Origin: Rhodocaloribacter litoris
GTDB lineage: Bacteria; Bacteroidota; Rhodothermia; Rhodothermales; ISCAR-4553
Length of the DNA stretch: 64,000 nucleotides
Direction of reading: 5' to 3'
NCBI RefSeq assembly: GCF_011682235.2
Contig: NZ_CP076718.1
Span: 1,058,608 to 1,122,607, forward strand
In this document: positions 1 through 15,295 of the stretch, piece by piece
Layout: the number at the start of each line of letters is the position of its first letter
How positions within the stretch are numbered: the first letter of the stretch is position 1
Notes under the pieces: generated by a model
The model's input: only the letters and a program-made list of their open reading frames with translations
The model's database searches: none
What the model was told of the DNA's origin: nothing
Position numbers and translations under genes: made by a program

Positions 1-923
1 AAGAGCAACAACGCGACGCCGAGCAACCCCCAGAGCATGCCTACGCCGAGGTACACGTACGCGGTGCTTTCCGGATGCATCATCACGTGAACCCCACTGA
101 ATCCCAGGGCTGCCACGCTGAAGGCCAGGCAGAGCAGGGACGTGATACCGAATCCGAAAAACGGCAGCCGGAAAGCCGTCATGATCGTTTTCAGGGCAAT
201 GATATCGAACAAGACCTTGTAGACCCTGGAGAGCCCGTACTTCGAATGCCCGTACTTCCGGGGGTGGTGGCGCACCTTGAGCTGGGCAATGGCCGCCCCC
301 GAGAGGGCCAGCATCGTCGGCAAGAGCCGGTGCATCTCGGAATACAACCGGAACTTTTTGATCACTTCGGCCCGGTAGGCCCGGAGGGCGCAGCCGTTGT
401 CCCGGATGGGCGTACCCATCACTTTCCGGATCAACCAGTTGGCAATGCGCGAGGGGATCTTCCGGGAAATCAGGCGATCCTTGCGTTGCTCCCGCCAGCC
501 GGCCACCAGGTCATAGCCCTCGTAGACCTTTTCGACGAGCCGGCCGATGTCCTCGGGATCGTTCTGCAGATCACCGTCCATGGTCACGATGACGTCCCCG
601 CGTGCCTGCTCGAAGCCTGCATAGAGCGCAAGCGTCTGCCCGAAATTTTTGCTCAGCTTGATGAGGCGCAACCGCCGGTCCTGCCGGGCCAGTTGGAGCG
701 CCTGTTCGAAGGTGCCGTCCGTGCTGCCGTCGTCGACCAGCAACACCTCGAAGGTGTACCCCAGCGGCGCCACGGCCCGCACGATGGCCTCGCAGAGCGG
801 CCGGATCGACTCCCGTTCGTTGTAGACCGGGACGACGATGGACAGCGCCACCGCCTGTTCGGAATCGGGGGTTCCAAGGCCGCGTCTCGCCCCGGCCAGT
901 TGATCGGCAACGTCCGTGTTCAC
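1..923 (-). CDS. Polyprenol-phosphate glycosyltransferase (GT2, DPM1/GtrB-like), 3' truncated by window edge
   Basis: Transfers a sugar from a nucleotide donor to a polyprenyl phosphate at the inner face of the cytoplasmic membrane (family knowledge). The frame opens with GTG at 923 and stays open to base 1 (about 307 codons, stop outside). The GT-A fold is clear: SIVVPVYNE near residue 28, VDDGSTDGT, then the DGDLQNDPED metal/acceptor motif, and RDNGCALRAYR. The last visible part is hydrophobic (FGFGITSLLCLAFSVAALGF, then GVGMLWGLLGVALLL), as in members with two C-terminal membrane helices. The GTG overlaps the TGA of the upstream epimerase (GTGA), so the two are translationally coupled. The acceptor and sugar are unknown; the operon suggests surface-glycan assembly. 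Confidence 0.85.
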   Translation of the reverse strand, partial: MNTDVADQLAGARRGLGTPDSEQAVALSIVVPVYNERESIRPLCEAIVRAVAPLGYTFEVLLVDDGSTDGTFEQALQLARQDRRLRLIKLSKNFGQTLALYAGFEQARGDVIVTMDGDLQNDPEDIGRLVEKVYEGYDLVAGWREQRKDRLISRKIPSRIANWLIRKVMGTPIRDNGCALRAYRAEVIKKFRLYSEMHRLLPTMLALSGAAIAQLKVRHHPRKYGHSKYGLSRVYKVLFDIIALKTIMTAFRLPFFGFGITSLLCLAFSVAALGFSGVHVMMHPESTAYVYLGVGMLWGLLGVALLL

Positions 924-1960
924 AGGCTCCAGGAGATAGAGGCAATGCGTTTCCAGGGAGGAGCGCTCCGGGCCCGCTCCAGCCAGGCCAGGAAAGCACG
1001 CAGGCCCTCGCGAAACCCGGTGGTGGGTTGATACCCCAGCAGCGCCCGTGCACGCCCGATGTCCGCCCAGGTCTGGGGAACCTCGCCGGGTTGTGCCGGC
1101 AGGTGCACGCGCCGGGCCCGAACGCCCAGTTCCTCCTCGATCGCGTCCACCATCTCGAGCAGCCCGATGGCCCGGTTGCTGCCCAGGTTGATCACCTCGT
1201 AGTTCGTTCGGTCGTAGTGCATGGCCGCCCGGATACCGGCAACGATGTCGTCGATATAGGTGTAGTCCCGCCGCGTCCGGCCATCGCCGAAGAGCGGGAC
1301 GGGTTCGCCGGCGAGCATCAAACGGGCGAACTTGTGAATCGCCAGGTCGGGACGCTGACGCGGGCCGTAGACCGTGAAGAAGCGCAGGGCGATGAACCGG
1401 ATGCCGTAGAGATGGCTGTAGACGTGCCCGAGCAGCTCTCCGCTCACCTTCGTGCTCGCATACGGGCTAATGGGCCGCAGCACGTGGTCCTCTTCGCGCC
1501 AGGGTACGTTGGGATTGACCCCGTAGACGCTGCTGGACGAACCGAAGACGAACTGCCGCACCCCCCACTCATGCGCCAGTTCCAGCAGGTTCTGCGTCCC
1601 GTTGACGTTGACCTGCTGATACTCGACCGGCGCCTTGATGGAGGGACGCACGCCTGCCCGGGCCGCCAGGTGCACGATCACGTCGTACCCTCCCGCAAGC
1701 CGTTTCCGCAGCCCCTCCAGGTCGCGGATATCCGCCTCCACGAGCCGGTACCGCTCGTAGTCCCGGTGGGAGACAATGTTGGCGTGCTTGATAGCCGGGT
1801 CGTAAAACGGGTCGAAGTTGTCGACGACGGTGACGCTGGCACCCGCTGCAAGCAACTGCCCGACGAGGTGGCTTCCGATGAAGCCGGCACCGCCGGTCAC
1901 GAGGATGGCCTTCCCGGCGTGAACCTGCTCCAGATGCGGCTGATCGTTCAATGCATACAC
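920..1960 (-). CDS. NAD-dependent sugar epimerase, UDP-glucuronate 4-epimerase-like
   Basis: Extended short-chain dehydrogenase of 346 residues, usual length for nucleotide-sugar 4-epimerases. The Rossmann NAD motif GGAGFIG is at 23-29, the catalytic SSSSVYG segment at 141-147 and the YxxxK pair at Tyr167/Lys171 (YASTK). The stretch FFTVYGPRQRPDLAIHKF is typical of the UDP-glucuronate/UDP-galacturonate epimerase branch, so UDP-GlcA is the likely substrate, but the sugar cannot be proved from sequence. The gene lies 28 bp after rfbC and overlaps the following glycosyltransferase by four bases, so it belongs to the same glycan operon. Confidence 0.85.
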   Translation of the reverse strand: MYALNDQPHLEQVHAGKAILVTGGAGFIGSHLVGQLLAAGASVTVVDNFDPFYDPAIKHANIVSHRDYERYRLVEADIRDLEGLRKRLAGGYDVIVHLAARAGVRPSIKAPVEYQQVNVNGTQNLLELAHEWGVRQFVFGSSSSVYGVNPNVPWREEDHVLRPISPYASTKVSGELLGHVYSHLYGIRFIALRFFTVYGPRQRPDLAIHKFARLMLAGEPVPLFGDGRTRRDYTYIDDIVAGIRAAMHYDRTNYEVINLGSNRAIGLLEMVDAIEEELGVRARRVHLPAQPGEVPQTWADIGRARALLGYQPTTGFREGLRAFLAWLERARSAPPWKRIASISWSL

Positions 1961-1988
1961 ACGTTTTAGGTGATCTTTTCTGTGACCC

Positions 1989-2534
1989 TCAAAACAACCG
2001 CTCGGGGGGCACGTCCCGCAAGTACGGCGCGGTGGCGTCTTTGGGGGAGAGGATCGGGTCTTTCACCGGCCAGGCGATGGCCAGGTCGGGGTCGTCCCAG
2101 CGGAGGCCGCCGTCGCCGGGCGGATGGTAGACATCGGTGGTCTTGTAATGGACGAGGGCCGTCTCGCTGAGGACCACGAAGCCATGGGCGAAACCCTCGG
2201 GCACGTAGAGCTGCCGGCCGTTCGCGCCGGAGAGGATGGCGGCCGTCCACCGGCCGAACGTCGGGGAACTGCGCCGCAGATCCACCGCCACGTCGAACAC
2301 CTCACCCTGGAGAACGGTCACGAGCTTGCCCTGCGGGCGCGGGTTCTGAAAATGCAGGCCCCGGAGCACCCCTTTGTGCGAGAAAGAGACGTTATCCTGC
2401 ACGAACTGCTCCGGCAACCCGCATGCATGATACCGACGGGCCTGCCACGTCTCCAGAAAGTAGCCTCGTTCGTCCGGGTAGACGTCCGGCTCGATGAGGA
2501 GGACGCCGTCGAGTTCGGTCCGGTGTACCTTCAT
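1989..2534 (-). CDS. rfbC: dTDP-4-dehydrorhamnose 3,5-epimerase
   Basis: Cupin-fold epimerase of 181 residues, the normal family size, acting on dTDP-4-keto-6-deoxyglucose in the dTDP-L-rhamnose pathway. Visible signatures are [11 protein letters not shown], the active-site stretch [10 protein letters not shown] with the catalytic His, [11 protein letters not shown], and [10 protein letters not shown]. The ATG at 2534 overlaps the TGA of rfbA (ATGA), which decides the start. A longer open frame upstream is only the shadow of rfbA. The next step enzyme, rfbD (dTDP-4-dehydrorhamnose reductase), is not in the window. Confidence 0.95.
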
Positions 2535-3439
2535 GCGGTCGGGGAGGCGTCGAGGGGGTGCAGGCGGGGGTCGGCGAGGAGGCGGAGCAGGTAGCGGCCG
2601 TAGGCGCTGTTGGCCATCGCCTGCGCCTGCCGTTCGAGCGCCCCGGCGTCGATCCAGCCGAGCTTGAAGGCCACCTCCTCGGGGCAGGCGATCTTGAGTC
2701 CCTGCCGCGCTTCGATGGTCTGCACGAACAGGGCTGCCTGCTGCAGGGCATCGTGCGTGCCCGTGTCCAGCCAGGCCAGGCCCCGCCCCATCAGCTCGAC
2801 GTGCAGCCGGCCGCGCTCCAGGTAGATGCGGTTGACGTCGGTGATCTCCAGCTCCCCCCGTGCCGAGGGCTTCAGCGAGGCGGCGATGTCGAGCACGTCG
2901 TTGTCGTAGAAGTACAGGCCGGTGACGGCGTAGTTCGACTTCGGGCGTGCGGGCTTCTCCTCGATGCTCACGGCCCGGCCGGCCTCGTCGAAGGCGACGA
3001 CGCCGTACCGCTCGGGGTCGCGGACGTAGTAGCCGAATACCGTGGCGCCCTCGGTGCGTGCGGCCGCCCGGCGGAGCTGTTCGGGCAGGCCGTGCCCGTA
3101 GAAGATGTTGTCGCCCAGGATCAGGCAGGAGGGGTCGCGCCCGATGAAGTCCCGGCCGATGACGAAGGCCTGTGCCAGCCCCTCGGGGCGCGGCTGCTCG
3201 GCGTAGGCGAGGTGGAGCCCCCACTGGCTGCCGTCGCCCAGGAGCTCTCGGAAGCGCGGCAGGTCGTGCGGCGTGGAGATGACCAGGATGTCACGGATCC
3301 CCGCCAGCATGAGGGTCGTCAGCGGGTAGTAGATCATCGGCTTGTCATAGACCGGCAGGAGCTGCTTGCTGACGACGCGGGTGATCGGGTACAGCCGGGT
3401 GCCGGAGCCGCCGGCCAGGATGATGCCTTTGCGCTGCAT
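2531..3439 (-). CDS. rfbA: Glucose-1-phosphate thymidylyltransferase
   Basis: Makes dTDP-glucose from dTTP and glucose-1-phosphate, the first step of dTDP-deoxysugar synthesis. The 302-residue protein matches the family length. It opens with [18 protein letters not shown] (nucleotide-binding loop) and continues with [33 protein letters not shown] and [13 protein letters not shown]. The ATG at 3439 is chosen because it precedes the N-terminal signature directly. Further upstream codons run into the ABC transporter gene on the same strand. The gene is 38 bp after that transporter and overlaps rfbC. Confidence 0.95.
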
Positions 3440-3477
3440 GGTGCTGTCGTTGCGTGTGGAGATGCGCCCCGGGCGCG

Positions 3478-5274
3478 TCAGACCACCTCCGCCATCTGCT
3501 GGAACTCGGGGTGCGAGGCAGCGAGCTCGTCGAACGTGCCGGTGGCGTCGATGCGACCGTCCTTGAGGAAATAGAGGCGGTCGCAGCGCTGGACGGTGCT
3601 CAGCCGGTGTGCGATCATGAGGACGGTGCGGTCCCGCTTGAGGGATTCGATGGTCTCCATGACCCGGCGTTCGGTCTGGTTGTCGAGCGCGGCCGTGGCC
3701 TCGTCGAGGACGAGCACGTCGGGGTTGTGGTAGAGGGCACGGGCGAGGCCGACGCGCTGGCGCTGGCCTCCGGAGAGGCGCACGCCCCGCTCGCCGGTCA
3801 CCGTGTCGAGCCCCTCGGGCAGGCTCCGGACGAAGTCGGCCAGCTGGGCGGCTTCGAGTGCGGCCCACACCTTCGCGTCGTCGATCTCGCCGTCCGGGAT
3901 GCCGAAGGCCACGTTGCGGCGGAGCGTGTCGTCGAGCAGCACGATGACCTGCGGCACGTAGCCGACGTGGTCGAGCCAGCCGCGGAGGTTGTCGTGGATG
4001 TCCACCCCGTCGACGGTGACGCGCCCCTGCTGCGGCCGGAGCAGGCCGAGGATGACGTTGACCAGGGTCGACTTGCCCGAGCCGGTGCTGCCGACGAACG
4101 CCACCGACTCGCCTTTCCGGACCTCCAGCGTGACGCCGTGGAGCGCCGGACGGCCGGCATCAGGATAGGTGTAGGTGACGTCCTCGACGCGGATCACACG
4201 CTCGAAGGCTAGCGGCGGCGGGGGCGGCTGCTTCTTCTGGCGCTTCCACGACGGCCCCTCCAGCCGCTGCAGGTCCTCGACGATGTGCGGGATGGCGGCC
4301 CCGCTGAACTGGATCTGGCTGATGCTGCCCACCATCTGCCCGATGCTCTGGCGCAGCCGCACGATGGCGGCCCCGTAGAGCGCCAGCATCGGCACCAGCG
4401 AGGCCGCGTCCGTCCCGACCAGTACCAGCACCATGACGATCCCCAGCAACCCCACCACGGCCACCATCTCGAGCACGTTCGGCGAGGCCTGGCGAATCAC
4501 CTGGTGTAGCCGCATGACCCGGGCAAAGTTAGCCACGCTGCGGTGAAAAACCTGTTCGAAGTAACGCTCGCGTCCCAGCACACGCATGTCTACGAGGGCC
4601 GAGAGCCCCTGGGTGACAGCCTTGATGACCTCCTTTCGTTCGTGCTTGGCCTCGATGCCGTAATGCTGCAACCGGTGTTTGAAGATGCGCAGGAAACCCC
4701 AGCTCGCCCCGCCAACCAGTGCGATCCCCACCACCGCAATACCCGGGGTGGTCACCAGCAACAGCACCACGGTGAAAAGGGTCATCATGCCCGCCATCGT
4801 CAAGGTCAGGAGCGGGTTGATGACGCCGGTCATGATCTCCTTCGTCTCCGTGGTAATGTTGCGGAGCAACTCGGCCGTGTTGCGGTTCAGGTGAAATTCC
4901 CACGGCGCGCGCAGGTAGGCACGGAAGAGCCGGTCGGCCAGGCGCACCCGGTGAAACTCGGTAACTTGCACCTGCAGGTAGTAGACGCCGTAGAGATAGA
5001 GGTTCTTGAACAGAAAGACCACGATCAGCAGGCCGGCGCCCCAGAGCACCAGCTCACGACCAGTGGTGATGTCCAGCGCTTCCAGGATGGAGGCGGCCGC
5101 CGGGATCGCCATCACCTTCTCCGGGACGGCCAGCGTGGCCACGAAAGCGGGCACGGCCCCGATGCCCACCACGTCGAGGAAGGCCCCCAGGATCATCATC
5201 ACCAGCAGGCCCAGGTACTTGAGCTTGTCCTGCCGGCTGAAGAGCGGTCGTATGAGGTTCAGGCGTTCGAGCAT
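3478..5274 (-). CDS. ABC exporter half-transporter with fused ATPase (PglK/MsbA-like, probable lipid-linked glycan flippase)
   Basis: 598 residues: an N-terminal transmembrane domain of about six helices (roughly residues 20-320) and a nucleotide-binding domain from about 360. Walker A is GSTGSGKS at 395-402, the signature LSGGQ at 500-504, Walker B LVLDE at 521-525 and the H-loop His at 556, so the ATPase looks functional. A proline-rich linker with five prolines in a row joins the domains near 350. Placement inside an rfb operon, three bases after rfbB, suggests export of a lipid-linked sugar or oligosaccharide. A lipid or peptide substrate cannot be excluded. Confidence 0.85.
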
Positions 5275-5277
5275 AGG

Positions 5278-6357
5278 TCAGTCGTTCGTCACGCCGGCCA
5301 GGCCCAGGCGTCGCAGATCATACTTGCCGTCGGTCACCTCGCGGCACCAGTCCAGGTGATCCAGGTACCACTGCACGGTCTTTCGGAGGCCGGTCTCAAA
5401 GGTCTCCGCCGGTCGCCAGCCCAGCTCCCGCTCGATCTTCGCCGGGTCGATCGCGTAGCGAAAGTCGTGGCCGGGGCGATCCTGCACGAACGTGATGAGG
5501 TCTTCGTGCCGCGGCACCCCGGGGTCGGGCGCCAGCTCGTCGAGCAGCGCACAGATGGCCCGCACCACGTCGATGTTGCGTCGCTCGCTGCGGCCCCCCA
5601 CGTTGTAGGTCTCTCCCGGCGTGCCGTGCTCGAGCACCGTCAGCAGGGCATCCACATGGTCGTCCACGTAGAGCCAGTCCCGCACGTTCTCGCCGCGCCC
5701 GTAGACCGGGATGGGCTTGCGCTGGATGGCGTTCAGGATGACCACCGGGATGAGCTTCTCGGGATACTGGTACGGGCCGTAGTTGTTCGAGCAGTTCGTC
5801 ACGAGGACGGGCAGGCCGTAGGTGTGGTGCCAGGCCCGCGCCAGGTGGTCGGAGGACGCCTTGCTGGCCGAATAGGGCGAGCTGGGCCGGTAGGGCGTCT
5901 CCTCCGTGAAATAGCCCTCGGGGCCGAGCATGCCGTAGACCTCGTCCGTCGAGACGTGCAGGAAGCGGAACGCCGCCCGGCCGGCCGCATCGAGGCCTTC
6001 CCAGTAGTGACGCGCCGCTTCGAGGAGCGTGTACGTGCCGAGGATGTTCGTGTGGATGAACGCCGCCGGCCCGTCGATGGAGCGGTCCACGTGCGACTCG
6101 GCCGCCAGGTGCATCACGGCGCAGGGGCGGTAGGTGGCGAACAGCCGGGCGACGGCCTTCGCGTCCGCGATGTCCACCCGTTCGAAGTGATAGCGGGGGT
6201 CGTCCGCCACCGGGGCGACCGTGCTCAGGTTGCCCGCATACGTCAGCTTGTCGACGTTGACGACGGTGTAGCCCGTGCGGCGGATCAGCCGGCGCACCAG
6301 CGCCGAGCCGATGAACCCGGCCCCGCCGGTAACCAGAATGACTTGTTTCATCTTCAT
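5278..6357 (-). CDS. rfbB: dTDP-glucose 4,6-dehydratase
   Basis: Converts dTDP-glucose to dTDP-4-keto-6-deoxyglucose using tightly bound NAD. The 359-residue product starts [20 protein letters not shown] (NAD loop) and carries [19 protein letters not shown], the STDEVYG active-site motif with Asp-Glu, and the YSASKAS Tyr/Lys pair. All are diagnostic for RfbB. The ATG at 6357 is preferred to in-frame codons further upstream because the fold begins there and the upstream codons have no conserved features. It is the first gene of the operon rfbB-ABC-rfbA-rfbC-epimerase-glycosyltransferase. Confidence 0.95.
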
Positions 6358-6814
6358 GCTAAGAATGCAAAGCGGGCACGGCTCCGCCACGTCGGTTACA
6401 TCTCGAGATGAAAACCGACCGCTCCGTACGGTTCCGAAGAAAACAGGGCGGATTCCCGGCCTGTCCAAACCCGGATACGGACACAACTTACAATGCTAAC
6501 ACATCGACGAAACAGGCGGTCCCTTAACACATCGTCAAGAAATGACGGGCAGACCGCCGGCCCGATCGTATGGTTCCATCGATGCTACAGCATGCGGATG
6601 CCTTCTCCGACCTCACCGTGTACACGGCGCTGTTTCCCATTGAAACCCGAACGCGCCGTATACACGTCCGACAGACTGCCGAAGCGTGCCAGCGACGAGG
6701 AAGCCCTCCGGCTCAACTCCCCCGAGACACGCGTGCAGGGATACCCGGAGGAGATCTTTTCTCTCTTCGGCCGTCGAGATGACATGAGGGTACGGATTGT
6801 ATCTGAGCGCTCTG
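6358..6814. other. Gene-free interval between rfbB and the SLBB-protein gene
   Basis: About 457 bases. Short frames exist on both strands, but none has a recognisable domain, a convincing ribosome-binding site or a coding-like composition. The part next to 6357 should hold the promoter of the rfb operon. I could not identify -10/-35 elements with confidence. The end near 6800 is downstream of the SLBB-protein gene and shows only short imperfect inverted repeats. Confidence 0.5.
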
Positions 6815-7318
6815 TCAGAGATTGCGCAGCCGCTCGACCAGCAGGGCAACGGTTCCGATGCTGGTCAGGATGGTCAGCGCATCCCGCCACTGAAAGCCCT
6901 GCCGCACGCGAGACTCGACCATGACGATATCCCCCTCCTGCAAAACCGGATAGGCGCCGGGATGAGCCAGCATCTGCTCAATAGGTTCGTCATAGAGCAC
7001 TTCGCGCCGCCCGCCTCCCGTCTCCCGGAAAAGTTTGATCCGATACTTGACGGACTGCCCCGGCCCGCCGGGTGCCATGGAGAAGCCTGTCAGCGCGAGC
7101 AGGCGGCCCAGATCGGTGCCGTCGCTGACCTCATAGATGCCGGTGCTCGCCGACCCGACCACGAGCACCTGGATGGTTGCATCACCAGGCTGGGTGAAGA
7201 CATGGTATGACGTCCCCGTTGCGGTGATGCTGTTGTGGCGCCCGAACGCCTGCCCCTGCGCGGGCAGCGTCGCCAGGCCGGTCACCAGAAGCAGGGACAG
7301 TATACAGAGGATACGCAT
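6815..7318 (-). CDS. Secreted SLBB-like polysaccharide-export-associated protein
   Basis: 167 residues. It has an N-terminal signal peptide (MRILCILSLLLVTGLATLPAQGQA). The following domain resembles the soluble-ligand-binding beta-grasp (SLBB) domains of Wza-type exporters: VLVVGSASTGIYEVSDGTDLG, later PGAYPVLQEGDIVMVESR. A hydrophobic segment, ALTILTSIGTVALLV, lies near the C-terminus. The protein is much shorter than a full Wza outer-membrane channel and shows no PES motif. It is therefore more likely an accessory periplasmic component than the pore. It lies 87 bp downstream of the BY-kinase gene, which supports a role in exopolysaccharide export or chain-length control. Confidence 0.7.
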   Translation of the reverse strand: MRILCILSLLLVTGLATLPAQGQAFGRHNSITATGTSYHVFTQPGDATIQVLVVGSASTGIYEVSDGTDLGRLLALTGFSMAPGGPGQSVKYRIKLFRETGGGRREVLYDEPIEQMLAHPGAYPVLQEGDIVMVESRVRQGFQWRDALTILTSIGTVALLVERLRNL

Positions 7319-7405
7319 GGTAAAAGAAGCTCCTTAGGGCACAACACCGCAGGCCCGAAACGCAGTGGTTTGCCGGATAAAACGGACAGGGGCGTCTCCG
7401 GTTGT

Positions 7406-9748
7406 TCAGCCTTCCGTGAGGGCCTTCACGTCGCGATAGCCGTAGGTACCGTATTCGCTGGTATACTGTGCATAGCGATCGTAGTGGCGAAAACGGTACT
7501 TATAGCCGTAGGCCATGGACACGTTGAAGCCGTTGAGCACGGTTCCGATCGTCGGCGTCCCGACACTCTCGAGCGACTCCACGGCGAAGTCGAACTCGCC
7601 TTCCTTGGTGTGCCCGGCCCGCACGACGAGCAGCGCGAGGTCGCTCTGGGTAGCCAGCAGCGCCGCATCGGTGGCCACACGCACCGGCGGTGTATCTATG
7701 ATAATGACATCGAACTGTGCACGCAACGTCTCGAGCAGGTCGCGCATGCTCCGCGTGGCGAAGAGCTCCGACGAGCGGGAAACCACCTTGCCGGCCGGAA
7801 CGATCCAGAGGTTGTCGATCTTCGAGCGCACCAGGCGTTCGTCGAAGGCGGGGTCGCGCGCGAGGAAGTGCGCCAGGCCCGGCCCCATTTCAAGGCCGAA
7901 GAGCTGGTGAATGCGGGGGCGCCGCAGGTCGGCATCGATCAGCACGGTACGGCGCCCGGCCTCGGCCATGACCACGGCCAGGTTGGCGGCCGTGGTGGAC
8001 TTGCCCTCCTCCACGCTGGCACTCGTGACGACGATGGTCTCCACGACAACGTCCGGCCGGCTGAACTGGATGTTGGTCCGCAGGTGGCGGTACGACTCGA
8101 CCACCGGCGACATCGGGTTGAGCAGCGTCACCAGTCCGGTCGCGAGGCGTTGCCCGTCCCGCTCGATGAAGTCCTTGCCGCGGGCTTCCTCTTTGATCAT
8201 GGGCCGGAGATCCGGCACGGTCCCCAGCACCTTGTACCCCCGGTGACGAAGCTGCTCGGGCTTGAAGAAGCGGTTGTCGAGCTTGTCTCGGACGATGGCC
8301 AGCCCGAGCCCGGCGAGCAGGCCGAAGAAAAGCCCCAGCACGAGATAGCGCATGCGGTCCGGGCGCACGGGTTCCGCGGGCTGCTTCGCCACACGGAGGA
8401 CGCGGGCATAGCCCGGCTCCGACTCCTCGGTGACGCGGACGTCCTGCAGCCGGGATACGACCGCCGCGTACATCTGCTCGGCATACTGGCGCCGGCGTTC
8501 GAGTTCGGTCATCTCCCGCGCCTGCTGCGGGATCGTGCGCAGCTCACGCTGGTACTCCTGGAGGCGCCGGTCCATCACCCCGATCTTAGCCTCCAGCTCG
8601 CTGATGGCAATCTCGGCCTCGGCGACCTGCTGCCGGAGGTTGGTGACGTAGGACAGCCCGGCTTCCCCACCGGAAACCCCGCCGGTGGCGGTCACCTCGT
8701 CGAAATACTGCTGGGACAGTTCGTCCAGCTTGTTCCGCAACCGCCGGATGTCCTGGTTGAGGGGGGCCAGGCGCGGATCGTCCGGGCTCAGCCCCGGATT
8801 GCGGCGGAGATAATTCTCCAGGTCCAGTTCTTTCTCGGTGAGTTGCGCGCGCACCTGGCGGAGCTGTTCATCGAGGTTCGAGGCAATGCGCTGCACCAGC
8901 CGCGGGCTGATCTGGCTCAACTCCTCCTTGAGCACCTGGAGCGAGGCCCGGCGCGTCTGCAAGTCGATGCGGGCGGCGTCCCGCTGTGCCTCCAGTTCGG
9001 CGATCTTCTGGACGAGGTAGCTGCCGGCCTGGTCGAGCCCGACGGCGCCTTCCCGGCTGAGGTAGGCCTGCACGGAGGCCTCGGCCTCCTGCAGCTCCTG
9101 CAGGCGTTTCTGCTCCTGTTCCTCCAGCAGCTTACGCGCCGCCGTGATGTGGGCGCGGCTCGCCTCCTGCGTCAGGTGCACGTATTCCTCCGCGTAGAGG
9201 TTCGCCAGGAGCATGGCTTCCCGGGGCGAGGTGCTGACCCCGGTGATGCGGATGATGTTGTTGCCGTCCCGGCCCTCCGGCTCGAACCGGGGGTAGCCGC
9301 TCAGGGCAACCCCGGCCAGTTCGGGATTCGTCTCCTGCTCATGCTGAAGCCGCCGGTGGACCCGCCGGTGCAGGCTGTCCGACAGGTAAAGCAGCTGGAT
9401 CTCGCCCATCAACGTCCGATCGTTTCGGGCAAAGAGGTTGTCGTCGAAGCCGGCCGGCGAGGTGGTCGTTGCGGTGGTGGTACGCCGCCCCTGCAGGTCC
9501 AGGATCACGAAACTCGCGGCTTCATACTCCGGCTCCAGCGTGTACGTGTACGCGGCCACGGAACCGGCAACGACCAGAAACGCCAGGATGATGAGCCAGC
9601 GACGGCGGTAGAGCAGGTCCAGCAGGTTTTCAATCTGGGCCCGGCCGCTCGGGGCCGGCATGGCCTCGTAATAGGCCCCCTCGCCCCCGTCCAGGCCACC
9701 GGCATAGCCATCCGGTCCTCCACTACGCCTGCGATAAACTGAAGCCAT
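7406..9748 (-). CDS. Wzz-domain bacterial tyrosine kinase (polysaccharide co-polymerase, GumC/ExoP + CpsD fusion)
   Basis: 780 residues. Domains in order: Wzz N-terminal membrane helix at about 50-68 (RRWLIILAFLVVAGSVAAYT), a long periplasmic region with coiled coil (about 190-430), a second helix near 465-482 (YLVLGLFFGLLAGLGLAIV), then a cytoplasmic BY-kinase. Walker A (SASVEEGKST) is near 575, a Walker A'-type DADLRRPR follows, and VIIIDTPP is near 683. The tail is a tyrosine cluster (YGYKYRFRHYDRYAQYTSEY), the usual autophosphorylation region. Such proteins control polymer length and assembly of capsule or exopolysaccharide together with a Wza-like exporter. Transcribed with the SLBB-like gene. 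Confidence 0.93.
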   Translation of the reverse strand: MASVYRRRSGGPDGYAGGLDGGEGAYYEAMPAPSGRAQIENLLDLLYRRRWLIILAFLVVAGSVAAYTYTLEPEYEAASFVILDLQGRRTTTATTTSPAGFDDNLFARNDRTLMGEIQLLYLSDSLHRRVHRRLQHEQETNPELAGVALSGYPRFEPEGRDGNNIIRITGVSTSPREAMLLANLYAEEYVHLTQEASRAHITAARKLLEEQEQKRLQELQEAEASVQAYLSREGAVGLDQAGSYLVQKIAELEAQRDAARIDLQTRRASLQVLKEELSQISPRLVQRIASNLDEQLRQVRAQLTEKELDLENYLRRNPGLSPDDPRLAPLNQDIRRLRNKLDELSQQYFDEVTATGGVSGGEAGLSYVTNLRQQVAEAEIAISELEAKIGVMDRRLQEYQRELRTIPQQAREMTELERRRQYAEQMYAAVVSRLQDVRVTEESEPGYARVLRVAKQPAEPVRPDRMRYLVLGLFFGLLAGLGLAIVRDKLDNRFFKPEQLRHRGYKVLGTVPDLRPMIKEEARGKDFIERDGQRLATGLVTLLNPMSPVVESYRHLRTNIQFSRPDVVVETIVVTSASVEEGKSTTAANLAVVMAEAGRRTVLIDADLRRPRIHQLFGLEMGPGLAHFLARDPAFDERLVRSKIDNLWIVPAGKVVSRSSELFATRSMRDLLETLRAQFDVIIIDTPPVRVATDAALLATQSDLALLVVRAGHTKEGEFDFAVESLESVGTPTIGTVLNGFNVSMAYGYKYRFRHYDRYAQYTSEYGTYGYRDVKALTEG

Positions 9749-10234
9749 AAGCAGTCACTCAAGAAATGGGGAGATCAGACGACCTGAGACACCAGGGTGC
9801 CCGTCCGGCACCATCGCCCCGTGTTACGTAGCTACCGTTGAAAAGATCGAATCACAAAGCCTATGCCGAACACAACACCGCTGAAAGGTCGAAGCAGCAC
9901 GGGGCAGGCATAGCCCGGCCATGTTTTCACTTCATGAACCATCAATATACTGAAAGTATAGCGCTTTTGATGCCGATGTCCTAACAATTTTTCCGGAGTC
10001 CCCCGATCCGGCCGGTTCAGACGGGACCCTCAACCCAAACACGGATGATCCTGCAAGGCTTTTCGATCTCAGCTTGAGCCGGTCTCTTCAGGCTTTTATC
10101 AGTTTCTCGTCTCATCCTGGGACGTGTCCCCGCTTTCAACGCGGCCCGTGTGCCCTGGTCTCTTCTGGCATCCTCCTTGCAGATGTCGTCGCCCGAAGAG
10201 GCAACCGGCTCTCCGATCCCGGACCTATGCACCT
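9749..10234. other. Divergent regulatory interval between the BY-kinase and AraC-type genes
   Basis: About 486 bases without a supported gene. It must contain the divergent promoters for the exopolysaccharide operon (minus) and the AraC-type regulator (plus). The central part (about 9840-10000) is locally AT-richer than the surroundings, which fits promoters. It holds the palindrome described separately at 9946-9960. Confidence 0.5.
9946..9960. promoter_or_regulatory. Palindrome TATACTGAAAGTATA, candidate operator
   Basis: A perfect 6-bp inverted repeat (TATACT / AGTATA) around a 3-base centre. It lies in the AT-rich part of the divergent BY-kinase / araC interval. Its position, symmetry and rarity of AT-rich sequence in this genome suggest a protein-binding site. 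No regulator is assigned. Confidence 0.35.
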
Positions 10235-10735
10235 ATGATCTCACTGTACACCGAGCAACGGCACATCCAGGCAGTCCTGCACGAGACGCTCGCCGAGCTC
10301 CGGCGTGCCGGCCGGGAGGTAGACCTGCCGGTTCCCGTACGGAAAGCGCTGGCCTACATCCACGAGCACCTGTTTGAAGAGACCCTCGACGTGGCGGCAG
10401 TATGCCGGCACTGCGGGCTCAACAACCACAACATCTCGAGCCGCTTCAAACGCCATGTGGGCCTTGGCATGCGGCGCTACATCGAACGGGGACGCCTGGA
10501 GGCGGCTAAACGCCTGCTGCACCATCCGGAACTGAGCATTCTGCAGATCGCCTGGGCCGTGGGATACGCCTACCCGGAATCGTTTGCCCGGGCCTTCAAG
10601 CGCTATACCGGCTGCACCGCCACAACCTACCGGGCCAGACTGTTAAGAAGAAATGGCAAGACGACACGCGACGCAACCCTTCAGCAAACCGCTTACCCTG
10701 CCGGCAGGACGTACCCGCCCCCCGGGAAACTGTAA
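10235..10735 (+). CDS. AraC-family DNA-binding regulator lacking an effector domain
   Basis: 166 residues from the ATG at 10235 (MISLYTEQRHIQAVL). The first half is a short helical region with no cupin sensor domain. The C-terminal two-thirds is an AraC-type double helix-turn-helix: VRKALAYIHEHLFEETLDVAA, then HCGLNNHNISSRFKRHVG, RYIERGRLEAAKRLL, and IAWAVGYAYPESFARAFKRYTG. A longer start at 10124 adds low-complexity Arg/Pro-rich residues and is less likely. It is the first plus-strand gene before the RiPP-like locus and divergent from the exopolysaccharide kinase, so it could control either. Confidence 0.8.
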   Translation: MISLYTEQRHIQAVLHETLAELRRAGREVDLPVPVRKALAYIHEHLFEETLDVAAVCRHCGLNNHNISSRFKRHVGLGMRRYIERGRLEAAKRLLHHPELSILQIAWAVGYAYPESFARAFKRYTGCTATTYRARLLRRNGKTTRDATLQQTAYPAGRTYPPPGKL

Positions 10736-10918: not shown

Positions 10919-12136
10919 ATGAACCCTTTGCTACGTAGCGGTGTTGCCGCACTGATCGCCCTGCTCTTATGCCCGGCAATCCCCTCCTTTGCCCAGACGA
11001 GCACGGTCATTACCACAAACAACAGCGCAGCCACCATCACCATCGAATTCCTCGGGAAGGTAGACAACGGTAACGGTACCTACACCTGGAGCTACCGCGT
11101 CACGGAAACCAGCGGCAAAGATCTGAGTCACTGGATCCTGGGCCTGTGCATGGACCTTTCCAAAGTCATCGCCTACACGCCCGGCGCCTCCGATGCCGGC
11201 ATAGGGGACGTTGAGAAAGGCCCTGACGGCGGCGGTACGTCCATCACCGGCATCAAATGGGAAGTCGAGGACGATTTCGACGACAACGGCACCGATGGCG
11301 GCGACAGTCGCATTTTCTCCTTCACGCTGAATATGGACTTCGCCATCGGACCGGTACCCGTCGGGGTCAAGTCGGGTGGTTCGGGTGGCCCGTCCCAGCA
11401 GGCTGGTACCGGCAGCATCAACGGACCGGTCTGCACGACGGGTGACCTCTGCGTCGGCGTCGACCCGGCCGACCTGCCTTCCTGGGACGGCAACATCACC
11501 GAACACCATGACGGCACGGGCTCCGCGACCCTCAAGGCTCCGCTCGGCCTGCAGCGCATCGAGCTGTTCAGCAACACCAACCTCGAACTCAGCGACGTGC
11601 AGGATACCGGAACGATGGCTTCCCTCGTCGGTCCCGGCATGTTCGAATGCAGCGTTCCCGGTACCGTAGGATGCCTCAAGTACACCTGGACGGGTGACGA
11701 AGAAGATGCGCCGACCGAGGTGAAACTCGTGCTGGTAGCCCCAGGACCCGGCCGCTCATTCTTCTTCGTCCACTTCAGCGACCTCTGCGATCACACGGTC
11801 CGGATCGACCCCGAGCTGTACCTGTACGCCGTCGGTACCGAAACGCTGGAGGCACCGGAAAGCTTTGCCCTGGAGCCGAACTACCCGAATCCGTTCCACG
11901 GCACTACCACGATCCGCTTCATGCTGCCCGAGGCTGCAACCGTGCGCCTGGCCGTCTATGACCTGCTGGGCCGTGAGGTGACCACGCTGTTCTCGGGTGA
12001 GCTGCCGGCCGGCTCCCACACGGTCTCCTGGGCGGGGCGTGACGCCCGCGGCGCCCTGCTGCCCAGCGGCGTCTACCTCTACCGCCTGGAGGCCGGCACC
12101 TTCGTCCAGACACGGCATATGACCCTGCTCAAATGA
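10919..12136 (+). CDS. Secreted protein with C-terminal type IX secretion sorting domain
   Basis: 405 residues with a signal peptide (LLRSGVAALIALLLCPAIPSFAQ). The middle part is a beta-rich region of unknown function (FLGKVDNGNGTYTWSYRVTE) with a Gly/Ser-rich loop and several cysteines. The last about 90 residues form a T9SS type A sorting domain: NYPNPFHGTTTIRF, then VRLAVYDLLGREV, GELPAGSHTVSW and GVYLYRLEAG. These domains direct export through the outer membrane, and usually surface attachment, in Bacteroidota and relatives. It precedes the small peptide gene by 79 bp. Whether it is functionally tied to the RiPP-like genes is unknown. Confidence 0.85.
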   Translation: MNPLLRSGVAALIALLLCPAIPSFAQTSTVITTNNSAATITIEFLGKVDNGNGTYTWSYRVTETSGKDLSHWILGLCMDLSKVIAYTPGASDAGIGDVEKGPDGGGTSITGIKWEVEDDFDDNGTDGGDSRIFSFTLNMDFAIGPVPVGVKSGGSGGPSQQAGTGSINGPVCTTGDLCVGVDPADLPSWDGNITEHHDGTGSATLKAPLGLQRIELFSNTNLELSDVQDTGTMASLVGPGMFECSVPGTVGCLKYTWTGDEEDAPTEVKLVLVAPGPGRSFFFVHFSDLCDHTVRIDPELYLYAVGTETLEAPESFALEPNYPNPFHGTTTIRFMLPEAATVRLAVYDLLGREVTTLFSGELPAGSHTVSWAGRDARGALLPSGVYLYRLEAGTFVQTRHMTLLK

Positions 12137-12175: not shown

Positions 12176-12215
12176 TGCCCCCTGTAAACCCCTTTCATAA
12201 AAAGGAATAGAAGCC

Positions 12216-12362
12216 ATGAACCTGCATAGAGAAGAAAACAAGGACCTGCATCCCGCACAGAGTCCGACGGCTTCCCAGAAGCCGTACGAACCGCCGGCCA
12301 TCACCCAGTCCGGCACGCTGAAAATTCAGGCGGGCTCGATATGCCTCTGGACGAAATGCTAG
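12216..12362 (+). CDS. 48-residue RiPP precursor candidate with lasso-peptide-like leader
   Basis: Small gene with a strong Shine-Dalgarno-like AAAGGAA 9 bases before ATG. The N-terminal 23 residues are polar. They are followed by YEPPAITQSGTLKIQAG at 24-40, which matches the lasso leader pattern YxxPxL/I-x3-G that is read by the RRE protein (Tyr24, Pro27, Ile29, Gly33). The usual penultimate Thr is replaced by Ala39. The remaining core is SICLWTKC: eight residues, two Cys, one Ser, and no Asp or Glu, so a classical macrolactam cannot form. Downstream are a B2-type leader peptidase and an HPr-kinase-like gene, both known partners of lasso precursors. Call: real gene likely; product class inferred. 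Confidence 0.65.
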   Translation: MNLHREENKDLHPAQSPTASQKPYEPPAITQSGTLKIQAGSICLWTKC

Positions 12363-12445
12363 GCTCCGGATGCACACCGGAACGTCCGAACCGCACCGTA
12401 TCGCGCACACCCGATACGACATTCTGAACCCGTACGCAGTCCCCC

Positions 12446-12484
12446 GGGGCCGGCACGCTGGAAAGCGGCCGGCCCCGCTTTCTT
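12446..12484 (+). terminator. GC-rich hairpin after the peptide gene
   Basis: Nine-base perfect stem GGGGCCGGC (12446-12454) / GCCGGCCCC (12468-12476) with a 13-base loop, followed by GCTTTCTT. It lies about 85 bases after the precursor stop. It could terminate, or partially terminate, so that the short precursor mRNA is more abundant than the enzyme mRNA downstream. Confidence 0.6.
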
Positions 12485-12576
12485 GGCACCTCCCGTCCCT
12501 CACTTTCCTTTGCCTCAATCCATTGTGTAATGAAGAGGGCTTTGCTACCTTTCCCGACACAACTATTACGTAGTGA

Positions 12577-13767
12577 ATGGTCATGCTGCGATCCGTCGTA
12601 TTCCTTACCGGCTGGCTGATTCTTGCGCTGCCGGGCCGGGCCCAACCCCTGTCCATCGTCTCCACCGACCCGGCCGAGGGGCAGGCCGGCGTGCCGCTGG
12701 CCAAAGTCGTCGTCTTCAACCTGAGCAAACCGCTGCCCCAGTTCGGATCGGTCTTCGTCAAACGCTTCACCTGGTCCCCGATCGACTCGACACGCCTCAC
12801 CGTCTTCGGCCACGACCAGGACGAGGACGGCAAGCTCACGGTGGTCTTCTTCACCCTCCAACACACCCCCGGCACGGACTTCTCCTTCTTCGTCTACGGG
12901 GTAAAAGCCGCCGACGGGAGCACGATGGAACGCCCCTTCGCCCTCAACTATTCGACCGCAACCGAGATGGGCACGCGCCGGGTGAGCGGGACGGTCGCCA
13001 TCGCCGCCGGAACCGCCACGCGCACCTCGGCGAAGCGGGCCCGGCTGCAACAGGTCGTCTGGGAGGTGCTCGAAGCCCAGGCCGAGCAACTCGAACGAGC
13101 CGTCTGGGCCGGAGCCGCCCCCTACGTACCCGCCAAAACGGTTGCCCGCCCGAAAACGGGCATGACGGGCGAGCTTGACCTGGACAAGACGGTGGTGCTG
13201 CTGCTGGACCGCTACGTCGTCGACCGACGGTCGTGGCGCATCCACGCCGCCGCGGCCATCCAGGAAGACGCCACGTTCACCTTCAACCACGTGCGCGACG
13301 GCACCTACTGGCCGCTGGCCATCAACTGGGACGATGAGGAGGGCGAGGTCGTCGCCGCCTACGGCTTCTACGACGCCGACGGCGACCTCGAACCCGATCC
13401 GATCACGGTCAGCGGCGGCGACGTGACGGACCTCGGCGTCGTCCTCGAGGAAATCAGCGTCGGCACCGACCCGGACCCGGCCTCCCCCCGGCCGTTCACC
13501 CTCCACCCGAACTTCCCCAATCCGTTCAGCCCACCCACCGAAATCACCTTCGACGTGGGCCGGCCCGGTCCCGTCCGCCTGACGGTCTACGACCTGCTCG
13601 GGCGCACGGTGCGCACCCTGGTCGACGGTTTCCGGCCCGCCGGCCGTCACCGGGCCTCCTGGGACGGCCGCAACGAAGCAGGCGACGCGGTGGCCGGTGG
13701 CGTCTACCTCTACCACCTGGAGGCCGGCGGCCATACCGAAGGCCGGCTCATGACCCTCGTCCGCTGA
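12577..13767 (+). CDS. Secreted protein with Ig-like (Big_5-type) domain and T9SS sorting domain
   Basis: 396 residues. Signal peptide VVFLTGWLILALPGRAQ (ATG at 12577 or 12583). Residues about 25-130 resemble a bacterial Ig-like domain (STDPAEGQAGVPLAKVVVFN, then FVYGVKAADGSTM). The middle is a beta-rich region with an Asp-rich turn (YGFYDADGDLEPDP). The C-terminal about 85 residues are a T9SS type A signal (NFPNPFSPPTEITF, VRLTVYDLLGRTV, GVYLYHLEAGG). It sits between the candidate precursor and the B2-peptidase gene, 32 bp before the latter, so it is probably co-transcribed with the modification enzymes. That arrangement is unusual for a RiPP locus. Confidence 0.85.
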   Translation: MVMLRSVVFLTGWLILALPGRAQPLSIVSTDPAEGQAGVPLAKVVVFNLSKPLPQFGSVFVKRFTWSPIDSTRLTVFGHDQDEDGKLTVVFFTLQHTPGTDFSFFVYGVKAADGSTMERPFALNYSTATEMGTRRVSGTVAIAAGTATRTSAKRARLQQVVWEVLEAQAEQLERAVWAGAAPYVPAKTVARPKTGMTGELDLDKTVVLLLDRYVVDRRSWRIHAAAAIQEDATFTFNHVRDGTYWPLAINWDDEEGEVVAAYGFYDADGDLEPDPITVSGGDVTDLGVVLEEISVGTDPDPASPRPFTLHPNFPNPFSPPTEITFDVGRPGPVRLTVYDLLGRTVRTLVDGFRPAGRHRASWDGRNEAGDAVAGGVYLYHLEAGGHTEGRLMTLVR

Positions 13768-13799
13768 CCCGCCGAACCGGTGACGCAACCCGGCGTTCG

Positions 13800-14276
13800 A
13801 TGCTTTCCCCGACAGCCAGAAAACGAGAAGCACGGGTGTTTGGTCGCATACGGCAGTGGCACCGCCGGCTGGGCGGCTTCCGCCTGCGGGATCTGTGGTG
13901 GGGGCTACAGATCCTCGGGCTGGTGACGCTGGCCACCCTGGTCAAGAGCCGGGTGTCCATTCCCCGGCTCGTACGCCTCTTCGACGCACGTCCCCGCCCC
14001 ACGCCGGGCGGCGACTGGCAACGCCTGAACCTCATCACACGGGGCCTGCTCCGCCGCACCCTCCGCCGCGACTTCTGCCTGCCTCACGCGCTCGTCCTCT
14101 TCCACTTCGGCCGACGATGGGGCTACCCGACCCGCATCTTCATCGGTGCCCGCAAAAACGAGCACGGGCTCGACGGGCACGCCTGGGTTCGTATCGACGG
14201 CACGGCCGTCCCCGGCCTGACGCCACCCGAGAACGCTTTCACCACCTTCTACGCCTACCCCGAAACGCCCTCGTGA
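13800..14276 (+). CDS. Lasso-peptide B2-type leader peptidase (transglutaminase-like)
   Basis: 158 residues, close to stand-alone B2 proteins. After a basic, helical N-terminus (LRDLWWGLQILGLVTLATL) comes the signature RDFCLPHALVLFHFGRRWGYP, then FIGARKNEHGLDGHAWVRIDG. This gives a plausible Cys93-His127-Asp133 catalytic triad like that of McjB. In lasso pathways B2 cleaves the leader after an RRE protein (B1) has bound it. No B1 or asparagine-synthetase-like cyclase gene is present here. The stop overlaps the GTG start of the HPr-kinase-like gene (GTGA), showing coupling. Confidence 0.85.
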   Translation: MLSPTARKREARVFGRIRQWHRRLGGFRLRDLWWGLQILGLVTLATLVKSRVSIPRLVRLFDARPRPTPGGDWQRLNLITRGLLRRTLRRDFCLPHALVLFHFGRRWGYPTRIFIGARKNEHGLDGHAWVRIDGTAVPGLTPPENAFTTFYAYPETPS

Positions 14277-15295
14277 ACCGTCTCGCTGCCGAACGCTCCC
14301 GCACTTACAAACTCCATGGCCTCGCCCTGACGATCCACACCGACGAGGAAATCCTCCACACCGCCGTGGGTCGCCTGCTCGGTCTGCTGCGGGCCCATCC
14401 GGCGACCGGCGGGGCAGCCGGGGGGCTGACGCTGCGCTTTGCCCGCACCCTCGGCGCGGTCCCTCCGGATGCCGTCCTCGTGGATACGCATGAGCGCGGA
14501 GTGGAAGTACTCTCGGCCCGTACCGGCCGGAAAACAGCGGAGCCGCTCTACCTGCGCCTCGACGACTCTACGGTCGAACTGGCCCCGGCGCAGGGGACGG
14601 CCACGTTCCGGCTTGCCTCGGAGATCTATGACGAAGAGGGCGTCCCCCATCCCGGCCCCCTCTTCGACCTGCTGATCCTGAGCCTGCTGATCCTTTTCCA
14701 GCCCCGCGGCCTCTATTTACTGCATGCCGCCTGCCTTGTCCACGAAGAGGCCGGCGTGCTCCTCTCGGCCCACAGCCGCAGCGGCAAGTCGACGCTGGCC
14801 ACCGGCCTGGTCTGCGCCGGATGGCGCTTTCTCTCAGACGACATCCTGCTGCTGCACGAGCAACCCGCCGGCGTCGAAGCCCTCGGCCTGGGCACGCAGT
14901 TCCGCCTCCTTCCGGACACGCTCCGCCGTTTCCCCGGCCTCGCCGCCCGCCCGGATGCCGCCCCCTTCGTCGTCGAAAAACACCACCTCGACGTCGACGT
15001 GCTCTTTCCCGGTCGCTATACCCCCCGGTGCCTGCCCCGCGTGCTGGTCATCCCCGAGCTCGCCGACCGCCCGGACAGCGAGCTCCAGCCTCTGCCGGCC
15101 TCGAAGGCCCTGCTGCATCTGCTCGGTCAGACCACCCTCCTTTTGCGCGACCGCCACCTGGCCCGGCGACACCTCGCCACCCTCAAGCGCCTGGCCTCGC
15201 AGGTCCAACCCTACCGCCTCCAGGCCGGCCGCGACCTCTACGACGATCCCGCGAAGGTCGCCACGCTCCTGACCCCGCTCCTCAAACACCTCTGA
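14273..15295 (+). CDS. HPr-kinase-like P-loop protein of RiPP type
   Basis: 340 residues from GTG at 14273, overlapping the B2 stop by four bases. The C-terminal half is HprK-like: LHAACLVHEEAGVLLSAHSR with Walker A ending SGKST (170-174), then CAGWRFLSDDILLL with Ser-Asp-Asp at 188-190, and a conserved region around LPDTLRRFPGL. The N-terminal 140 residues are not recognisable beyond weak family resemblance. Homologues in lasso clusters (for example those of Bacillales) phosphorylate a C-terminal serine of the precursor. Here the only serine in the predicted core is Ser41, at its first position. True HPr regulation is unlikely: no PTS gene is nearby and the length and N-terminus differ from HprK/P. 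Confidence 0.75.
   Translation: MNRLAAERSRTYKLHGLALTIHTDEEILHTAVGRLLGLLRAHPATGGAAGGLTLRFARTLGAVPPDAVLVDTHERGVEVLSARTGRKTAEPLYLRLDDSTVELAPAQGTATFRLASEIYDEEGVPHPGPLFDLLILSLLILFQPRGLYLLHAACLVHEEAGVLLSAHSRSGKSTLATGLVCAGWRFLSDDILLLHEQPAGVEALGLGTQFRLLPDTLRRFPGLAARPDAAPFVVEKHHLDVDVLFPGRYTPRCLPRVLVIPELADRPDSELQPLPASKALLHLLGQTTLLLRDRHLARRHLATLKRLASQVQPYRLQAGRDLYDDPAKVATLLTPLLKHL

Follow-up and report, generated by a model that had tools for sequence, protein, structure and literature searches.

A cyclase-less, lasso-type precursor gene linked to type IX secretion surface proteins in Rhodocaloribacter litoris

We analyzed a 64,000-nucleotide stretch of the single-contig, 4.50-Mb genome of Rhodocaloribacter litoris (contig NZ_CP076718.1, positions 1,058,608 to 1,122,607; hereafter the window), centering on a small gene for a predicted precursor of a ribosomally synthesized and post-translationally modified peptide (RiPP). 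An earlier inspection without database searches (the sequence-only reading) had described here a 48-residue gene with a strong ribosome-binding site and a lasso-type leader, followed by a B2 leader peptidase and an HPr-kinase-like gene overlapping by four bases, with neither a cyclase nor a B1 protein in the locus; all of these elements were borne out. In window coordinates, the locus comprises the following features:

10919..12136, + strand: T9a, a type IX secretion system (T9SS)-type surface protein of 405 amino acids with a signal peptide-like start and a C-terminal sorting domain (CTD); FlgD_ig PF13860, 2.2e-14
11504..11854, + strand: domain of about 110 amino acids preceding the CTD (pre-CTD domain), shared by precursor-linked surface proteins, with a conserved Cys and Asp-Pro; from alignment
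12202..12206, + strand: ribosome-binding site AAGGA, from sequence, 9 nt before the precursor ATG
12216..12362, + strand: RiPP-type precursor, 48 amino acids, with leader motif YEPPAI at 12285-12302 and core (G)SICLWTKC predicted at 12333/12336-12359
12446..12476, + strand: GC-rich stem-loop, then CTTTCTT, from the fold; probable terminator of T9a-precursor
12577..13767, + strand: T9b, a second T9SS-tailed surface protein with a Big_5-like N-terminal part; PF13860, 1.7e-8
13800..14276, + strand: transglutaminase-like B2 leader peptidase; Transglut_core3 PF13471, 5.9e-13; NF033537 lasso_biosyn_B2, 1.1e-12
14273..15295, + strand: HPr-kinase-like kinase, 340 amino acids, GTG start; TIGR04352, 6.8e-13; TIGR04355, 4.5e-11

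The open reading frame (ORF) at 12216-12362 translates as MNLHREENKDLHPAQSPTASQKPYEPPAITQSGTLKIQAGSICLWTKC. Its YEPPAI segment fits the YxxPxL leader motif, which takes the form [YF]xxPx[LIV] across the family described below; this is the type of motif recognized by B1, and binding by such a protein is predicted here. The motif, which was chosen afterwards, fits only the precursor among the 354 small ORFs of the window. We predicted the cleavage site from the rule used for core boundaries, namely a Thr at leader position -2, and the start of the window core is uncertain by one residue. The sister genus codes for an orthologue that is 57% identical across leader and core and has the same neighbors, with the two precursors comparing as FVPPMLKTHGTLSIQAG-SINLWDKK in the sister genus versus YEPPAITQSGTLKIQAG-SICLWTKC in the window.

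A search with the 48-residue peptide as a single query against 198 genomes of the phylum retrieved the peptide itself and otherwise weak matches (E of 0.01-0.1), with no precursor among those inspected. A profile built from 13 sequences (motif scans alone gave mostly noise) detected about 30 precursors from at least 11 Rhodothermales genera and one Bryobacteraceae (acidobacterial) metagenome-assembled genome (MAG), with matches in 20 of the 114 genomes of the order (E<1e-3). These searches took in a single genome for each species of one order, together with one genome-collection scan; several of the relatives are drafts, and gene calling, for which a fixed training set was used, is unreliable in the AT-richer ones. 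The precursors are united by the common leader [YF]xxPx[LIV]-x5-[LIV]-x3-T-x, and are encoded in one to three copies per genome, both beside or near the enzyme cassettes described below and at separate sites in the same genomes; the profile found a single significant member in the genome of the window. Among the NCBIfam lasso leader families NF033521, NF033528 and NF033534, none matches the window precursor, and the matches of a small number of relatives are weak (best E 0.00033). Across Rhodothermus, most changes in the leader are synonymous, preserving it, and the variation falls in a core of the form G-x-F-x-F-S: GSFNFS (two genomes), GGFRFS, GVFSFS, GVFVFS and GSFDFS. Thus, as judged by comparison, we are dealing with a conserved, coding and leader-bearing small gene, and the concern voiced in the sequence-only reading, that it might lack conservation in relatives, is answered by the roughly 30 relatives. 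A chance ORF would fit the weak score (E=0.045) that the window precursor obtains from a profile excluding its own family, where it ranked first across the window and three other genome stretches. However, such an origin, to which we give a negligible probability, is countered by the sister-genus orthologue, which scores 2.4e-5 against the profile lacking its family and shares both neighbors, and by the predominance of synonymous changes in the related Rhodothermus set.

The matches of the B2 peptidase to PF13471 and NF033537 both exceed the cut-offs, and it keeps the catalytic Cys and His; a PDB search with it gave no significant match. The kinase matches the HprK-related TIGR04352 and TIGR04355 partially, below their equivalog cut-offs, and keeps the P-loop and the DD motif when aligned to solved HPr kinases. 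Its GTG start overlaps the B2 stop by 4 nt. The closest relatives of both are enzymes of cassettes in related genomes: in pairwise comparisons, the window kinase scores 5e-51 to 5e-42 against the cassette kinases versus 2e-11 against the kinase of a lasso cluster, and the window B2 scores 2e-24 and 9e-19 against cassette B2s versus 3e-4 against the lasso-cluster B2. By these scores, the window enzymes group with the cassette enzymes, apart from those of the lasso cluster. The cassettes have the following gene orders:

Rhodothermus (L043, L044, L045, L089, L090): nucleotidyltransferase-B2-kinase-B1
two Salinibacter species (L050, S. altiplanensis; L093): kinase-B1
L091 and L092: kinase-B1-nucleotidyltransferase
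L097 and L098: kinase-B1-B2-nucleotidyltransferase
Bryobacteraceae MAG (L061, 76-2974): kinase-radical SAM-B1-B2

No asparagine synthetase-type cyclase is found in any of these cassettes, and a separate lasso cluster lies near those of L050 and L093. The sequence-only reading had proposed looking in relatives for the precursor together with B2 and the kinase, and the precursor and the kinase clade adjoin one another in the two Salinibacter species (with kinase and B1) and in L091, L092, L097, L098 and L061. In the last of these, the kinase clade and leader type are as in the window, and the radical SAM gene between kinase and B1 points to a possible further modification in Acidobacteriota. Comparison of the genomes shows this to be a dedicated kinase clade that co-occurs with the precursor: 19 of the 20 genomes positive for the cassette kinase have a precursor versus 1 of the 94 negative ones (Fisher 2e-19, which, like the adjacency counts, ignores phylogeny), and the relationship persists at the level of genera (10/11 versus 1/38; 1.4e-8). 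The sole kinase-negative genome with a match apparently has another precursor type.

We then surveyed the rest of the genome for recognition element (PqqD-like B1) and asparagine synthetase-like genes, as the sequence-only reading had suggested. There are two PF13471 (B2) genes, two PqqD-type B1 genes and several asparagine synthetase-like genes; both B1 genes lie outside the window locus, and the nearest lasso-type cyclase is about 75 kb away in another cluster. The latter, upstream of the locus, has the full lasso-type set of B1, B2, cyclase, 51-residue precursor, kinase and ABC transporter (L015, C1:978000-997500 of the same genome, 3732-17860; precursor MNTSIKKGYEAPALTIYGSVATITGNQSAGGCDHPCGVNNIDNTFYSVGVK); its downstream part has two more asparagine synthetase-like genes and glycosyltransferase-like genes. 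A region at 619 kb (L016, C1:612000-627000, 7369-9980) is an incomplete lasso-like locus with B1, a 55-residue precursor-like gene (PYHRPRFTVHGDIAALTRAS...WGWKWKHGGGGHGVS), an HprK-like gene and a gene for a 353-residue protein, but without B2 or cyclase. We considered completion of the window locus in trans from this region and rejected it: its B1 and kinase are nearer to their lasso-cluster relatives, and the 353-residue protein is unlike the cassette nucleotidyltransferases.

Within the window, T9b and the stem-loop sit between the precursor and B2; therefore, these genes probably do not form one operon. Rather, given the strength of the stem-loop between the precursor and T9b, T9a and the precursor probably share one transcript, with B2 and the kinase on another. 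A consensus terminator scan did not list the stem-loop at 12446-12476, though the fold shows it, and four other loci have stem-loops at the equivalent place. This arrangement would suit an explanation in which the 48-residue product is an unprocessed small protein accompanying T9a, with B2 and the kinase serving other precursors, such as the one at 619 kb, which has a B1 but no B2. The loss in the window lineage of two residues discussed below, Thr(-2) and the C-terminal Ser, points the same way. However, the near-perfect co-occurrence of the precursor with the kinase clade, with both together in this genome and in those of the cassette loci with a precursor listed above, and the detection of only one significant family precursor in the genome, make this explanation improbable.

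A lasso ring joins residue 1 to an Asp or Glu at positions 7-9. In BsfA, it is formed between Gly1 and Asp8 (PMC10368454). The window core, (G)SICLWTKC, contains neither Asp nor Glu, these residues are missing from positions 7-9 in 28 of the 32 predicted cores, and 11 of the cores are hexapeptides; the exceptions, with possible real lasso cores, are L172, L173, L189 and one in G245. A ring acceptor is thus absent from the sequence of the window peptide and of most of its relatives, and a lasso is therefore not the expected product even where a genome has a cyclase elsewhere. This bears on the case for an ordinary split lasso locus, in which the complete cluster about 75 kb upstream, cyclase included, would process the precursor in trans to a lasso peptide. 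The window does lack B1, so that a partner acting in trans is needed; a complete cluster is present in the same genome, and an asparagine synthetase-type cyclase is found somewhere in 19 of 22 related genomes. Yet that cluster has its own precursor, the B2 and kinase of the window belong to another clade, no such cyclase was detected at 1e-20 in three kinase-positive genomes (drafts), and the acceptor is missing from the cores. We consider this route highly unlikely, and likewise the single conserved cluster with a cyclase that the sequence-only reading had named as the ordinary alternative is not what we find. Two of the exceptional precursors, L172 and L173 (both in G228), lie behind T9SS-tailed genes and have longer cores, GPGMTGTQDAVIF... 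and GPGLGTEDAVIF..., with an Asp or Glu at 7-9; true lasso peptides could thus share the pairing with surface proteins.

A Ser, a possible phosphate acceptor, closes 21 of the 32 family cores, against an expectation of about 6%. Lasso kinases work on the linear precursor, at the C-terminal Ser (PMC8498205), and the target of BsfK is the internal Ser3, in a reaction accelerated by B1 (PMC10368454). The window precursor ends in Cys and that of the sister genus in Lys, with Cys, Lys or Trp as the last residue in the window lineage; leader position -2 is Ala or Gln in the window and the sister genus, and Thr in most other members. Judging from these residues, an internal Ser or Thr would be the kinase target in the window lineage.

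The strongest conserved neighbor of the precursor is neither B2 nor the kinase, but the T9SS surface-protein gene upstream, which the sequence-only reading had not mentioned. In the window, T9a ends 80 nt before the precursor; its match to Por_Secre_tail (2.9e-5) is below the cut-off of that family. Where the upstream region could be read (two loci stop short of it), about 25 of 29 precursor loci are immediately preceded by a CTD gene in the same orientation, 55-381 nt from the leader motif. The same holds for 16 of 17 loci left out of the profile building, compared to a background of about 1-2% of genes. The N-terminal modules of these proteins differ, including subtilase, beta-helix, FG-GAP, NHL and Ig types, but most of them, T9a included, have a common domain of about 110 residues just before the CTD. 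This domain had no Pfam match in the proteins scanned, and a profile of it built without T9a's own family still matches T9a (2e-8). As a control, we examined 37 other CTD genes (17 from this genome and 20 from Roseithermus), and none had the pre-CTD domain or an adjoining precursor. Thus, in the genomes sampled, the link between the precursor and this domain is exclusive at the level of sequence. Precursors of other core types (L097, L098, L184, L188; L172, L173) lie behind CTD genes with different pre-CTD regions, such that core type tracks surface-protein type. Relatives of T9b immediately follow precursors in the sister genus (65% identical to the window T9b), Roseithermus (two loci) and Salinibacter (two species). 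The genome has 44 CTD places (E<=0.001), and therefore the T9SS machinery is likely present. An AlphaFold model of T9a from the single sequence was unusable (mean predicted local distance difference test score 37.5), and our literature search found no paper naming both T9SS and lasso peptides.

This association allows two narrower explanations of what the peptide does. In one, it would be a prosthetic peptide or maturation tag, joined covalently to T9a's pre-CTD domain or folding together with it, either ahead of T9SS export or following it. The restriction of the domain to precursor-linked proteins (0/37 other CTD genes), its conserved Cys and Asp-Pro, and the placement of T9a and the precursor in the same probable operon favor this. 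Its difficulties are the meeting place, since B2 would cut the leader off on the cytoplasmic side whereas T9a passes through the inner membrane in unfolded form, and the absence of a conserved ligase-like enzyme from the loci; we regard it as unlikely. In the other, the short core would be exported as a linear pheromone or kin marker, with the T9SS surface protein as its receptor or capture protein. The conserved leader with core positions varying between species (as in the G-x-F-x-F-S of Rhodothermus), the tracking of surface-protein type by core type, and the one to three copies per genome are in keeping with such a role. However, the loci have no exporter, a surface protein without a membrane-spanning part could not signal alone, and no conserved adjoining response regulator was seen, the AraC-type gene at 10235-10735 lying outside that conservation check. 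This explanation too has a low probability, though a slightly higher one than the preceding.

Taking the above together, we lean toward the reading that the locus is an offshoot of lasso biosynthesis working independently of a cyclase, its products being short linear peptides, probably phosphorylated, with a surface protein as their partner. Under this reading, the 48-residue precursor would be made together with T9a, and a B1 protein encoded elsewhere would bind its YEPPAI leader. The HprK-like kinase would phosphorylate a Ser or Thr of the still linear core, at the C-terminal Ser in most relatives and at an internal Ser or Thr here, and B2 would remove the leader to yield a linear peptide of about 8-9 residues, compared to 6-17 in most relatives. 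In the relatives, the cassette nucleotidyltransferase may add a sugar to the phosphate, by analogy with pseudomycoidin. No lasso ring would form because the core has no acceptor residue. The product would then have the pre-CTD domain of T9a as its partner, serving as ligand, prosthetic peptide or captured signal, as suggested by the exclusive genetic association. The sequence-only reading had offered a kinase- and protease-processed product of a new class or a cyclase encoded elsewhere. This is supported in part, by the leader, its conservation and the cyclase-less B1, B2, kinase and nucleotidyltransferase sets of several relatives; the action of B2 and the kinase on the peptide is what we infer.

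Several observations weigh against this offshoot reading. By the profile lacking its family (E=0.045), the window precursor is a divergent member. Its lineage is missing the usual kinase site, the C-terminal Ser, as well as Thr(-2). The window B2 and kinase are kept apart from the precursor by T9b and the stem-loop, and the enzymes of Rhodothermus and Roseithermus are far from the precursor. The third catalytic residue of the window B2 is not assignable. Neither a cassette-type B1 nor a cassette-type nucleotidyltransferase was found in the genome, whose two B1s are nearer to lasso-cluster B1s. The CTD genes that precede two other precursor types (L172/L173 and L097-like) differ in their pre-CTD region, and only the genus-level counts allow for phylogeny.

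Phosphorylated lasso peptides are known from paeninodin and from the Bradymonas bsf cluster, with B1, B2, C, D, the kinase K and the nucleotidyltransferase N (PMC8498205, PMC10368454). The system described here resembles them in its YxxPxL leader, B2 peptidase and HPr-kinase homologue and, in the relatives, in B1, the nucleotidyltransferase, Thr(-2) and the C-terminal Ser. It differs in that its loci have neither cyclase nor ABC transporter, its cores have no ring acceptor and are as short as 6 residues, and its genes are dispersed, with a T9SS surface protein as partner. In pseudomycoidin, a kinase is paired with a nucleotidyltransferase, and the latter attaches a hexose to the phosphorylated C-terminal Ser (PMC8498205). 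The relatives' cassettes have the same pair of enzymes; however, pseudomycoidin is a threaded lasso, whereas a linear form is predicted for the peptides of this family, and the genome of the window yielded no cassette nucleotidyltransferase. We keep processing in the manner of a lasso leader apart from being a lasso peptide, as the latter is contradicted by the lack of a ring acceptor, of a cyclase in the locus and of Thr(-2). As for the surface proteins, T9a and T9b have the Por_Secre_tail/FlgD_ig-like tails of T9SS cargo with a C-terminal sorting domain, but T9a is set apart from other such cargo by the additional pre-CTD domain, found here only in precursor-linked proteins.

More tentatively, in a proposal that we rate as somewhat short of probable, the family would constitute a new RiPP class: short linear phosphopeptides from lasso-type leaders without a cyclase, each tied to a T9SS surface protein through a new pre-CTD domain, with the RiPP as a ligand, prosthetic group or identity mark. 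The B1, B2, kinase and nucleotidyltransferase of lasso clusters have been understood as helpers in making a ring, and here they are conserved with peptides unable to form one. Their coupling to exported surface proteins would be a link between RiPPs and type IX secretion. If this holds, it would reveal a role of the leader-processing module without the cyclase, provide a directly testable peptide-protein pair, and account for orphan leaders of lasso-like type, which genome mining by clusters would overlook.

Other precursors also came to light. A full cluster in Rhodothermus has a tandem pair of lasso-type precursors (L053, 11586-11945) whose cores are almost the same (CWYGKQGG[QR]YDADLGPGTLSDCR). 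A different type, with the conserved core AEYGGLD...LFAMASP, is found in two genomes of another family (L052, 9065-9316, and a match in L148), near B2, kinase and nucleotidyltransferase genes, with no cyclase match within the L052 stretch. Finally, in the window itself, an AraC-type regulator (10235-10735) adjoins T9a, and an exopolysaccharide-type gene set lies upstream at 920-9661, with sugar nucleotide enzymes, a polysaccharide export protein and a chain-length/tyrosine kinase.

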